From Corynespora cassiicola (taxonomy: Eukaryota; Ascomycota; Dothideomycetes; Pleosporales; Corynesporascaceae): a stretch of 64,000 nucleotides of DNA. This document shows, piece after piece, positions 20,922 to 33,274 of the stretch. The first letter of the stretch is position 1; each line of letters begins with the position of its first letter. Below the pieces are notes generated by a model. It saw only the letters and a program-made list of their open reading frames with translations, made no database searches and was not told the DNA's origin. Made by a program: the position numbers and the translations under genes. The stretch lies in the NCBI GenBank assembly GCA_022059125.1, contig JAEUWY010000006.1:1302001-1366000 (forward strand). Direction: 5' to 3'.

Positions 20922-20928
20922 AAAAAAA
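20922..20928 (-). terminator. Pol III terminator-like T7 after tRNA-Lys copy A
   Basis: Seven T residues on the minus strand about 22 nt beyond the 3' end of copy A. A shorter TTTT directly abuts the tRNA (T73 plus three T). Confidence 0.6.
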
Positions 20929-20950
20929 GAAGGCAACTGACTATTTAAAA

Positions 20951-21083
20951 GCCCGATGCGGGGCTCGAACTAATAGTTGTTAGAATGAGTTGTTATTATG
21001 AAGGAAGATATTCATACCCCGCAGCCTTGAGATAACCTCTTGCATATAAGAGTCTCACGCTCTACCGATTGAGCTAACCAGGC
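20951..21083 (-). tRNA. tRNA-Lys(CUU), copy A, with anticodon-loop intron and T-arm insert
   Basis: Read from 21083 down, the gene gives a full cloverleaf: acceptor GCCTGGT/ATCGGGC (two G-T pairs), D stem GCTC/GAGC, anticodon stem TGAGA/TCTCA, loop CTCTTAA with anticodon CTT, and T stem GCGGG/CCCGC with loop TTCGAGC. Two interruptions must be removed: a 13-nt intron after position 37 (plus coordinates 21046-21034) containing AAGAG complementary to the anticodon loop, as in standard tRNA introns, and a 48-nt insert at 21017-20970 between T-stem position 53 and T54. The base after the acceptor stem is T. It lies 18 bp downstream of copy B, with which it may be co-transcribed. Confidence 0.85.
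20970..21017 (-). other. 48-nt spliceosomal-intron-like insert in T arm of tRNA-Lys copy A
   Basis: On the minus strand the insert begins GTATGA and ends TATTAG, with CTAAC placed 9 nt before the end. Outside these motifs it shows little similarity to the inserts in copies B and C. Its removal joins GCGGG to TTCGAGC and gives a canonical T arm. Boundaries are ambiguous by one base, because the exon and the insert both end in G. Confidence 0.75.
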
Positions 21084-21101
21084 AGGTGACCAGTTGCGTA
21101 A

Positions 21102-21236
21102 GCCCGATGCGGGGGTCGAACTATTAAATGTCAGGATAGGTAACAGTTGTGTCATGCAGGAGATTCGTACCCCGCAGCCTTGAGATAACCTCTTGTGTAT
21201 AAGAGTCTCACGCTCTACCGATTGAGCTAACCAGGC
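21102..21236 (-). tRNA. tRNA-Lys(CUU), copy B, with anticodon-loop intron and T-arm insert
   Basis: Read from 21236 down, the mature part matches copy A except for the T loop (TTCGACC instead of TTCGAGC). A 13-nt anticodon-loop intron follows position 37 and again carries AAGAG. The T-arm insert is 50 nt (21170-21121). There is no T run between this gene and copy A, 18 bp downstream, so the primary transcript probably continues into copy A. Confidence 0.85.
21121..21170 (-). other. 50-nt spliceosomal-intron-like insert in T arm of tRNA-Lys copy B
   Basis: Starts GTACGA and ends AATAG, with CTGAC 9 nt before the end in place of CTAAC. It differs from the copy C insert at several positions although the two tRNA bodies are identical. 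Confidence 0.75.
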
Positions 21237-21808
21237 TATTGACCAATTCTAGTCATGTGATTTGATGAAAATGATCCGAATTAAAGCACATTTGTACTAC
21301 TGAATTGAAGCTTTTTCTATGTCGATTCAAACTGTGCAATGCTTACTCGAGGTCTAAAGCTGGTCGAAAATTTTTCTGGTAGCGGCCAGACCGGCGTTCT
21401 GAAAATTTGCTGTGTGGAGAAGTTTTCGGCAAGGGACCGCAGCCTTTGTGCACCCACCCACATACAAACAAATAATTACCGCTATCTAAGGGCAAATGCT
21501 TGATTAAGAAAGACATTTCTAATATAGTGGCAATGGATCTCTGGTTTTTTAATGATGAGCACTATGCGGTGCTAGAGTTATTGCGCAGTGCTTGTGTTTG
21601 TAGTGCATTGACTGTACATCTAACTGAAATCTTTATCCAAGTAGAACATTTATTTCCATCAAAGACTGTTGTTATTCTGTTATAAGCTATGAACTATATG
21701 TGTGTGCGTTTTGTAACTGCTTCCACCGCACAGCGGTGGTTCCTGATGTTGTGTCCGTCAAATCCAGAGCTCGACAGCAAAAAGCGAAACCCGAGATGAA
21801 ATCTCAGC

Positions 21809-21816
21809 AAAAAAAA
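21809..21816 (-). terminator. Pol III terminator-like T8 after tRNA-Lys copy C
   Basis: Eight T residues on the minus strand about 15 nt beyond the 3' end of copy C, a standard Pol III stop. Confidence 0.7.
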
Positions 21817-21831
21817 GATAATAATTTAGAA

Positions 21832-21969
21832 GCCCGATGCGGGGGTCGAACTATTAAATGTTAGTATAGGTAATAGTTGTGTCATGTGGGAGATTCGTAC
21901 CCCGCAGCCTTGAGATAACCTCTTGTGTATAGTAAGAGTCTCACGCTCTACCGATTGAGCTAACCAGGC
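21832..21969 (-). tRNA. tRNA-Lys(CUU), copy C, with anticodon-loop intron and T-arm insert
   Basis: Read from 21969 down, the mature sequence equals copy B. The anticodon-loop intron is 16 nt, three longer than in the other copies, and keeps the AAGAG complementary to the anticodon loop. The 50-nt T-arm insert lies at 21900-21851. A T8 tract follows 15 nt after the gene, so this copy looks like an independent Pol III unit. It is about 600 bp from the A/B pair. Confidence 0.85.
21851..21900 (-). other. 50-nt spliceosomal-intron-like insert in T arm of tRNA-Lys copy C
   Basis: Starts GTACGA, has ATACTAAC 9 nt before the end and finishes AATAG. It has the best branch-point match of the three inserts. 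It lies at the same tRNA position, 53/54, as in copies A and B. Confidence 0.75.
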
Positions 21970-31531: not shown

Positions 31532-33274
31532 ATGTTCCGATCCGTTGTTGGAAAGATTCGGCCTGCCGAGGCCGGCGCAGTCCTGCGTCCTGCTGCTCCA
31601 CATGCGCGAACCGTGACTGCCCCCTCTCTGGCATGCAGCTATGCCCTACCCCGCCAGGGCAGCAGGCTCCTCTCCTCCTCCACTTCCCTCAGACCCTCCT
31701 CCTCCAGCTTCGCCCAGCTGAAAGCACCGAACGCTCTCCAGCGCCGCCAATTCGCCTTTACCAGCAAGATGGCCTCCACCAGGACAGAAAGCGACGCCTT
31801 TGGCGAGATCCAGGTCCCCTCGGATAAGTACTGGGGCGCCCAGACGGAGCGCTCGCTCGAGAACTTCAAGATCAACCAGCCCCAGGACCGCATGCCGCCG
31901 CCCATCGTCAGGGCCTTTGGCATCCTCAAGGGCGCTGCCGCCACCGTCAACATGAAGTTCGGGCTGGGTAAGCTCCCGTGAGACAGCCTAGAGCTACCCC
32001 GCTGACGCACCGCGCAGACCCGAAGGTCGGAAAGGCAATCCAGCAGGCTGCCGACGAGGTTGCTTCGCTGAAGCTCGCCGACCACTTCCCTTTGGTGGTC
32101 TGGCAGACGGGCTCTGGCACCCAGTCCAACATGAATGCCAACGAGGTCATCTCCAACCGCGCCATTGAGATCCTCGGCGGCCAGATGGGAACCAAGAAGC
32201 CCGTCCACCCCAATGACCACGTCAACATGTCGGCCTCGTCCAACGACACCTTCCCCACCGTCATGCACATCGCCGCGGTTCTCGACTTCGAGGAGTCCCT
32301 TCTCCCCGCCCTCAGGAGCCTCCGCGATGCCCTGAAGAAGAAGAGCGAGCAGTTTGACAAGATCATCAAGATCGGCAGGACTCACTTGCAGGACGCCACC
32401 CCGCTGACTCTGGGCCAGGAGTTTTCGGGCTATGTGACTCAGCTCGACTTTGGCATTGAGCGCATTCAGTCATCTCTGCCCCGCCTGAGGATGCTGGCGC
32501 AGGGTGGAACGGCTGTCGGTACCGGCATCAACACCTTCAAGGGCTTTGCTGAGGACATCGCTGCCGAGGTCACCAAGATGACGGGCCACGAGTTTGTCAC
32601 TGCCCCCAACAAGTTCGAGGCTCTCGCTGCACACGATGCCGTCGTTGAGGCTTCCGGCCAGCTCAACACCCTGGCTGCTTCGCTGTTCAAGATCGCCCAG
32701 GACATCCGATTCCTCGGATCTGGCCCCCGCTGTGGACTCGGGGAGCTCAAGCTCCCCGAGAACGAGCCGGGATCGTCCATCATGCCCGGAAAGGTCAACC
32801 CAACCCAGTGCGAGTCTTTGACCATGGTCTGCACCCAGGTGTTCGGTAACCATGCCGCTACCACCTTTGCTGGATCGCAGGGTAACTTTGAGTTGAACGT
32901 CTTCAAGCCTGTCATGATCCGCAACCTGCTCCACAGCTCTCGCCTGTTGGCCGATGGCATGCGCAGCTTCGAGAAGAACCTTGTCGTTGGAATTGAAGCC
33001 GACGAGAAGCGCATCAGTGCCCTCCTGAATGAGAGTTTGATGTTGGTGACGTGCCTCAACCCCATCATTGGTAGGCGGAAACCTCCCTTTCCATCCATAG
33101 ACACTAGCTAACACCACTCAAGGTTACGACATGGCTTCCAAGGTTGCCAAGAATGCCCACAAGAAGGGCCTCACGCTCAAGGAGAGCGCCATGGAGCTTA
33201 AGGCTTTGAGCTCCGAGGACTTTGACACCCACGTTCGCCCAGAACTTATGATTGCTCCCAAGGAAAAGAAATAG
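31532..33274 (+). CDS. Fumarate hydratase, class II, mitochondrial/cytosolic
   Basis: Exons 31532-31967, 32018-33070 and 33123-33274 (introns 50 and 52 bp) encode 546 residues. Fumarase interconverts fumarate and malate in the TCA cycle. Diagnostic sites are the class II superfamily signature [11 protein letters not shown] (397-407), [10 protein letters not shown] and the [17 protein letters not shown] stretch. The first 79 residues are Arg/Ser/Ala-rich with almost no acidic residues, a mitochondrial presequence. Met80 starts a protein that aligns with bacterial FumC-length enzymes, so a second, cytosolic isoform could arise by leaky scanning or by retrograde release, as known for yeast fumarase. 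SMC5 follows in the same direction after 338 bp. Confidence 0.96.

Follow-up and report, generated by a model that had tools for sequence, protein, structure and literature searches.

Putative minimal spliceosomal introns in the T arm of nuclear tRNA genes of three isotypes in Corynespora cassiicola

Beyond protein-coding genes, spliceosomal introns are known from the U6 snRNA genes of Schizosaccharomyces pombe, Rhodosporidium and other fungi, where they are usually ascribed to reverse splicing, U6 sitting in the core of the spliceosome itself, and from the rRNA genes of ascomycetes. What of tRNA genes? The nuclear tRNA introns known to us are all cut by a protein endonuclease, and a nuclear tRNA gene with a spliceosomal intron has not, to our knowledge, been reported, which is not to claim that nothing is in print. 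Insertions in the D or T arm of eukaryotic tRNA genes have been described; most affect a single member of a large synonymous set and are supposed to mark pseudogenes, with the tRNAs of nucleomorphs and of Cyanidioschyzon as exceptions, and archaeal tRNAs can carry introns at position 53/54 (PMC4090602). The string 'spliceosom' has 0 occurrences in that review (PMC4090602).

Here, we describe inserts at 53/54 of nuclear tRNA genes that look like introns of the mRNA type. Our best explanation, to which we give a probability of roughly 0.85, is that these genes yield Pol III pre-tRNAs with minimal U2-type introns that would be spliced by the spliceosome at 53/54, the 37/38 introns of the Lys and Ile genes being left to the tRNA endonuclease. 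Compared with fungal U6 introns, the inserts are alike in being mRNA-type GT-AG sequences in a short Pol III RNA and, very likely, in being removed by the spliceosome, as their signals suggest; they differ in their hosts, tRNAs of three isotypes interrupted at one site rather than a core RNA of the spliceosome. With the introns of ascomycete rRNA genes they share the mRNA type and a fungal structural RNA as host, but rRNAs are Pol I transcripts and not tRNAs. As to U6 in the present genome, no intron was found among the 9 matches listed, all of them full-length to the model (48 of 2690 candidates scored).

The window—the whole stretch of 64,000 nt analysed, positions 1302001-1366000 of contig C6 in assembly G000 (44.35 Mb, 23 contigs)—holds three tRNA-Lys(CUU) genes, all on the minus strand together with their parts: gene 1 (20951..21083, covering positions 1-72, with the discriminator at 20950), gene 2 (21102..21236) and gene 3 (21832..21969). 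The Rfam tRNA model (RF00005) scores them low, with 37.3 bits at 20950-21083, 37.4 bits at 21101-21236 and 29.3 bits at 21880-21969, and at gathering thresholds Rfam gave no match other than tRNA in the whole window. ARAGORN, run on the whole window in bacterial-code mode, called no tRNA; all three genes were called, as tRNA-Lys(ctt), after removal of the insert. As stated in a preliminary description of this DNA, each gene is interrupted by 48-50 nt exactly between position 53 and T54, that is, between GCGGG (49-53) and TTCGA (54-58). The putative T-arm introns lie at 20970..21017 in gene 1 (48 nt; GTATGA...CTAAC(20983-20979)...TAG), at 21121..21170 in gene 2 (50 nt; GTACGA...CTGAC(21134-21130)...TAG) and at 21851..21900 in gene 3 (50 nt; GTACGA...CTAAC(21864-21860)...TAG). 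The other particulars of that description were read again in all three inserts: the GTAYGA start, the CTAAC, CTGAC and CTAAC (genes 1, 2 and 3) ending 9 nt upstream of the intron end, the final AG (TAG throughout) and, with the inserts out, a 5-bp T stem, GCGGG/CCCGC, closing a TTCGAxC loop (TTCGAGC or TTCGACC). What it did not state is that, besides the T-arm insert, all three genes carry a normal intron of 13-16 nt at 37/38, read from the sequence at 21034..21046 (13 nt), 21187..21199 (13 nt) and 21917..21932 (16 nt), respectively. The T-arm junction is ambiguous by one base, as the upstream exon and the intron both end in G; with both cuts shifted one base upstream the product is identical, and GT-AG ends occur only in the 53/54 register.

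Gene 2 stands in tandem upstream of gene 1 (20951-21236), both interrupted, with a 17-nt gap and no T5 run between them. A tandem of two Ile genes on contig C20 (1493937-1494187), the second of them interrupted, likewise has no terminator between its members. Judging by this arrangement, the Lys-Lys and Ile-Ile pairs are probably dicistronic pre-tRNAs.

How far does the phenomenon extend across the genome? Searched with 28 nt from the 5′ part of the Lys gene, the genome gave 7 copies with zero mismatches (control, 0), and probes of the His and Ile 5′ parts at ≤3 mismatches found 3 His genes, all interrupted, and 5 Ile genes, 3 of them interrupted (controls, 0). This makes 12 interrupted genes of three isotypes with the same 53/54 site, namely 6 of the 7 copies found for Lys(CUU), 3 of 5 for Ile(AAU) and 3 of 3 for His(GUG). 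The T-arm inserts are a real, recurrent set and not an isolated oddity. The interrupted Lys(CUU) genes first described are real, with the correction that the genome also has one uninterrupted Lys(CUU) gene, at C4:4367346-4367432.

Pattern searches were consistent with these numbers. The pattern GGTANG...YTRAY...AGTTCRANNC matched 20 loci, against 13 for a reversed-pattern control, and a test of A box and acceptor pairing splits the 20 cleanly into 12 tRNA genes, the three His and three Ile genes among them, with 7/7 acceptor pairs and 8 loci without an A-box match in the 230 nt upstream. With any branch site allowed there were 24 matches (control, 33): 12 are the tRNA genes, 11 have no CTRAC, and one (L049, C6:2049388) has CTRAC near its end and no A box. 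Patterns set in other contexts gave 37 matches (control, 104) and 86, Lys gene 2 included (control, 101). Eleven of the 37 are interrupted tRNA genes; the 30 loci checked consist of 8 tRNA genes and 22 loci that are not, among them one (L075) with an A-box match and 3/7 acceptor pairs that we counted as non-tRNA, and the 7 matches beyond those loci of 3 known tRNA genes and 4 outside the reading. For the 86-match pattern, the flanks of a minority of matches were read. No thirteenth interrupted gene appeared among the places read from the any-branch-site and other-context patterns, searches that are blind to inserts departing both from GGTANG at the 5′ splice site and from CTAAY at the branch site. 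Since raw counts in such searches are not above those of the reversed-pattern controls, it is the tRNA-gene setting that marks the 12. Six further A-box matches in the assembly resemble those of Phe and Tyr tRNA genes.

An Rfam scan of the genome, in which 63 of 1206 candidates were scored, 53 listed and 50 fetched (30 + 20 loci), picked up neither of the two uninterrupted Ile(AAU) genes. Of the 50 fetched genes, 29 have a 37/38-type intron according to ARAGORN, and isotypes such as Ala, Gly, Thr and Arg are among them. Five tRNA-Leu(AAG) genes (L099-L103; C5:993712, C8:687312, C1:2361474, C6:3349179 and C5:1936603, all in G000) share, in the 100-nt downstream flanks that were read, a trailer of 37-38 nt before the T run with the form TCGTCCG-hairpin-CGGGTTTCGGGA or near it; by eye, the hairpin stem varies among copies with pairing kept.

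What kind of intron might the inserts be? All 12 start with GTANG, contain a CTRAC that ends 9-13 nt before the intron end and finish in YAG; their lengths are 48, 50, 50, 51, 52 and 54 nt in Lys, 54, 55 and 57 nt in Ile, and 56, 58 and 59 nt in His. The six protein introns that we read in the window measure 50-53 nt, within the 45-62 nt given in the preliminary description for the shortest protein introns there, and each joins into an in-frame peptide. All six open with GT[AG]NG[CT], and in five of them a CTRAC ends 10-11 nt upstream of the intron end; in the sixth, from a gene that we take to be oxidoreductase-like, the sole counterpart is a CTCAC that stops 2 nt short of the end. Two are introns of a fumarase gene on the plus strand, at 31968..32017 (50 nt; GTAAGC...CTGAC...CAG, joined KFGLDPKVG) and 33071..33122 (52 nt; GTAGGC...CTAAC...AAG, joined NPIIGYDMA), both in frame and in agreement with aligned fumarases. 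Aligned solved homologues back these two junctions and one in the methylcitrate synthase gene; the second methylcitrate synthase junction and those in the SMC5 and oxidoreductase-like genes are based on an open joined frame only. In both signal and size, then, the T-arm inserts look like the protein introns of the window.

Such a combination of signals is rarely met by chance. For any single insert, a GT[AG]NG start, a CTRAC in the last 20 nt and an AG end coincided in a fraction of ≤0.0006 of 5000 dinucleotide shuffles; the branch motif alone occurred in 0.9-12% of dinucleotide shuffles, or in 3-7% with the ends held fixed. A combined probability for the 12 inserts is not given, because paralogues are not independent. 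Across the six Lys rows of an alignment (A1), the exons are 99% identical and the signal columns, as chosen by us, 97%, as against 55% for the intron interior; in the Lys copies, splice signals are kept and the interior drifts. Between isotypes, insert interiors are hardly alike (z mostly <2; 9 of the 12 inserts compared), the best likeness, between Lys L031 and Ile L114, reaching z 3.5 and that of His with the others at most 1.8, a degree of likeness that would suit one shared origin as well as separate gains.

The position of the inserts is identical to that of archaeal 53/54 introns, and the ectopic introns of C. merolae and of cryptophyte nucleomorphs likewise lie outside 37/38, some of them in the T arm and often beside a canonical intron (PMC4090602). 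Might a tRNA endonuclease, as in archaea, C. merolae and nucleomorphs, cut the present inserts as well, their GT-AG look being coincidental? Archaeal tRNA introns at 53/54 and the T-arm or other ectopic introns in nucleomorph and red algal nuclear tRNAs are precedents (PMC4090602), but we consider such cutting very improbable here. Ectopic introns measure 3-24 nt in the Guillardia nucleomorph and carry BHB motifs in C. merolae, and the archaeal 53/54 introns have BHB-type sites served by the archaeal endonuclease (PMC4090602). In contrast, the 4-bp central helix of such a site, sought between two 3-nt bulges from the 5′ exon end to the intron end, was seen in 0 of 12 genes in the offsets tried, by a simple test of that helix only. 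Further against an endonuclease, GTANG, CTRAC and YAG stand in all 12 inserts and have no known role in that pathway, and the eukaryotic enzyme, which uses the mature domain as a ruler, should be thrown off by a T-arm insert. Canonical 37/38 introns are present as separate introns in the interrupted Lys and Ile genes themselves and differ from the T-arm inserts, which sit at 53/54, in site, size and signals. Nor are the inserts self-splicing introns, 48-59 nt being too short for a group I or II catalytic core. A search of viral and prokaryotic contig collections with the Lys insert pattern gave 0 matches, a result with no bearing on other fungi. The reading that remains preferred is that of minimal U2-type introns.

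Could RNA polymerase III still read genes that are interrupted in this way? Of the two internal promoter elements, the B box (52-62) is cut in two by the insert after position 53 and the A box is untouched, and all 12 genes match an A-box regular expression and have 7/7 acceptor pairs, G-T counted. Because the intron ends in AG, the B box survives at the 3′ junction, where AGTTCRANNCC scores 12.3-16.6 on a matrix built from 49 uninterrupted genes of this genome (L014, with its shorter flank, left out); these 49 genes themselves score 7.9-18.1, with a median of 16.3, and 12 of them also have A at position 52. In the window, the junction-spanning B boxes lie at 20961..20971 in gene 1 (AG/TTCGAGCCC; score 14.9), 21112..21122 in gene 2 (13.3) and 21842..21852 in gene 3 (13.3). 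A B box at the 5′ junction was considered as well, since GGTACGAATC resembles one in some Lys copies. Scored in the 53/54 register, the 5′ junction gave -12 to -24 in all 12 genes, and the idea was dropped because the resemblance does not extend to Ile and His.

The downstream layout fits the same polymerase. Runs of T5 or longer follow 5-22 nt downstream in 11 of the 12 interrupted genes, the twelfth being the first of a tandem pair and running into the next tRNA gene, and TTTT occurs inside 0 of 12 inserts, a layout given here as plain counts. In the window, terminator-like runs of T7 (20922..20928) and T8 (21809..21816), both on the minus strand and read from the sequence, follow genes 1 and 3. 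A CATCAA-like element lies 16-31 nt upstream in 10 of the 12, interrupted genes being the only ones looked at for it. Together, these features suggest that the interrupted genes are transcribed by Pol III. The likeness of their splice signals to those of mRNA introns would also suit loci embedded in longer, capped RNA polymerase II transcripts, spliced in the manner of mRNA with the tRNA released later. To this we give the least credence of all, given that the B box is kept at the 3′ junction, that terminator-like runs follow closely with none inside the inserts, and that the upstream element recurs. A longer 3′ trailer peculiar to the interrupted genes was also considered and dropped, as the distance to T5 is 5-22 nt (11 of 12) versus 0-59 nt in 47 of the 49 uninterrupted genes, with no clear difference on plain comparison.

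If Pol III transcribes them, are the interrupted genes of any use to the cell? With their inserts, ARAGORN called 0 of 12 correctly (one was miscalled); with the inserts removed, 12 of 12 were called correctly as Lys(ctt), Ile(aat) or His(gtg). The T stem has 5/5 pairs in 11 of 12 genes, the exception being one mismatch in an Ile copy (L112). That mismatch, the fact that one of the seven Lys(CUU) copies and two of the five Ile(AAU) copies are uninterrupted, and the precedent of eukaryotic T-arm insertions, mostly in single copies supposed to be pseudogenes (PMC4090602), might suggest that the interrupted genes are pseudogenes and that intact copies supply the tRNA. Against this stand acceptor stems fully paired in 12 of 12, splice signals kept in 12 of 12, exons far more alike than intron interiors among the six Lys copies (99% versus 55%), and a tRNA-His for which the genome probes found no uninterrupted copy; stems decayed as in a pseudogene were not seen beyond L112, and dispensability could apply to Lys and Ile, which have uninterrupted copies. 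We consider it very improbable that the set consists of pseudogenes, and favour functional genes that would be spliced.

For Lys and Ile, the one and two uninterrupted genes would make splicing dispensable. Lys alone cannot show a need for splicing, given its uninterrupted copy on C4; it is His that makes that case. The 5′ probe gave the three interrupted tRNA-His copies, a looser probe gave these three plus one 3-mismatch match at C6:3557190-3557214, and the joined tRNA-His 3′ half had no genome match within 3 mismatches. The extra match, to the D-arm/anticodon probe, may be due to chance or to a tRNA-His that has decayed or diverged. There was no His among the 50 fetched Rfam tRNA matches (63 of 1206 candidates scored), a list that weighs little on this point because of the fraction scored and the two uninterrupted Ile genes missed. 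An uninterrupted His gene too diverged for the probes might exist and would lie beyond the reach of the Rfam scan. If the assembly is complete here and there is no such diverged copy, insert removal would be the sole route to mature tRNA-His. The gene set suggests that the mRNA splicing machinery is needed for some essential tRNAs, and we infer that tRNA-His supply depends on the spliceosome.

Some features count against easy splicing. The 3′ exon of the interrupted genes is very short, at 19 nt plus trailer, and a Pol III RNA is without the cap that aids splicing. In predicted folds of the unspliced RNAs, moreover, the 5′ splice site is often paired (mean unpaired probability 0.05-0.57), and five of the 12, from three His and two Ile genes, form no T stem; this folded context could hinder the spliceosome. 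The His insert is predicted to pair with the 5′ exon: in all three copies (L108-L110) one hairpin, GCCAGCC/GGTTGGC, ties the end of the 5′ exon to the beginning of the intron, and a second one holds the branch site in its loop, with a stem that varies among the three copies and, by eye, mostly still pairs. We considered a structural intron and rejected it: with z from -1.7 to 1.4, the inserts do not exceed shuffled sequence in fold stability, even if the two hairpins are common to the three His copies.

How, then, might a tRNA be made from such a gene? In the mechanism that we favour, RNA polymerase III would read the gene from its internal promoter, with the A box intact and AG/TTCRANNC serving as a B box that is set one intron length farther away from it. 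The spliceosome would recognise GTANG, the CTRAC branch site and YAG of a minimal U2-type intron between G53 and T54 and excise a lariat of 48-59 nt, which would restore the 5-bp T stem and the 7-nt T loop, and the 37/38 intron of Lys and Ile would be taken out in a separate reaction, by the tRNA splicing endonuclease and ligase. The preliminary description had proposed minimal spliceosomal introns in Pol III genes and had staked this on conserved splice motifs; the motifs are present in 12 of 12 loci of this genome, and the proposal gains from nine more genes, from two additional isotypes, from the likeness of the signals to those of protein introns in the window and from a tRNA-His for which no uninterrupted gene was found, with splicing itself deduced from these features. 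Going further, we hold it fairly probable that tRNA-His(GUG) supply is wholly spliceosome-dependent, that the 53/54 site recurs in three isotypes because an AG-ending intron placed there leaves the B box readable, and that nuclear tRNA introns have here another route of removal, joined with endonuclease splicing in the same Lys or Ile molecule.

If true, this would have the spliceosome act on short, uncapped and highly folded Pol III RNAs, with the twelve genes forming a natural series on which minimal substrates of the spliceosome could be tested and the intron AG that completes the B box offering a testable reason for the 53/54 position. Standard tRNA finders can miss a whole isotype in such a genome, as is exemplified by ARAGORN, which called 0 of 3 unspliced His genes. 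Most of all, if the inserts are removed in the way that their signals indicate, the fungus would have its tRNA production tied to the spliceosome.
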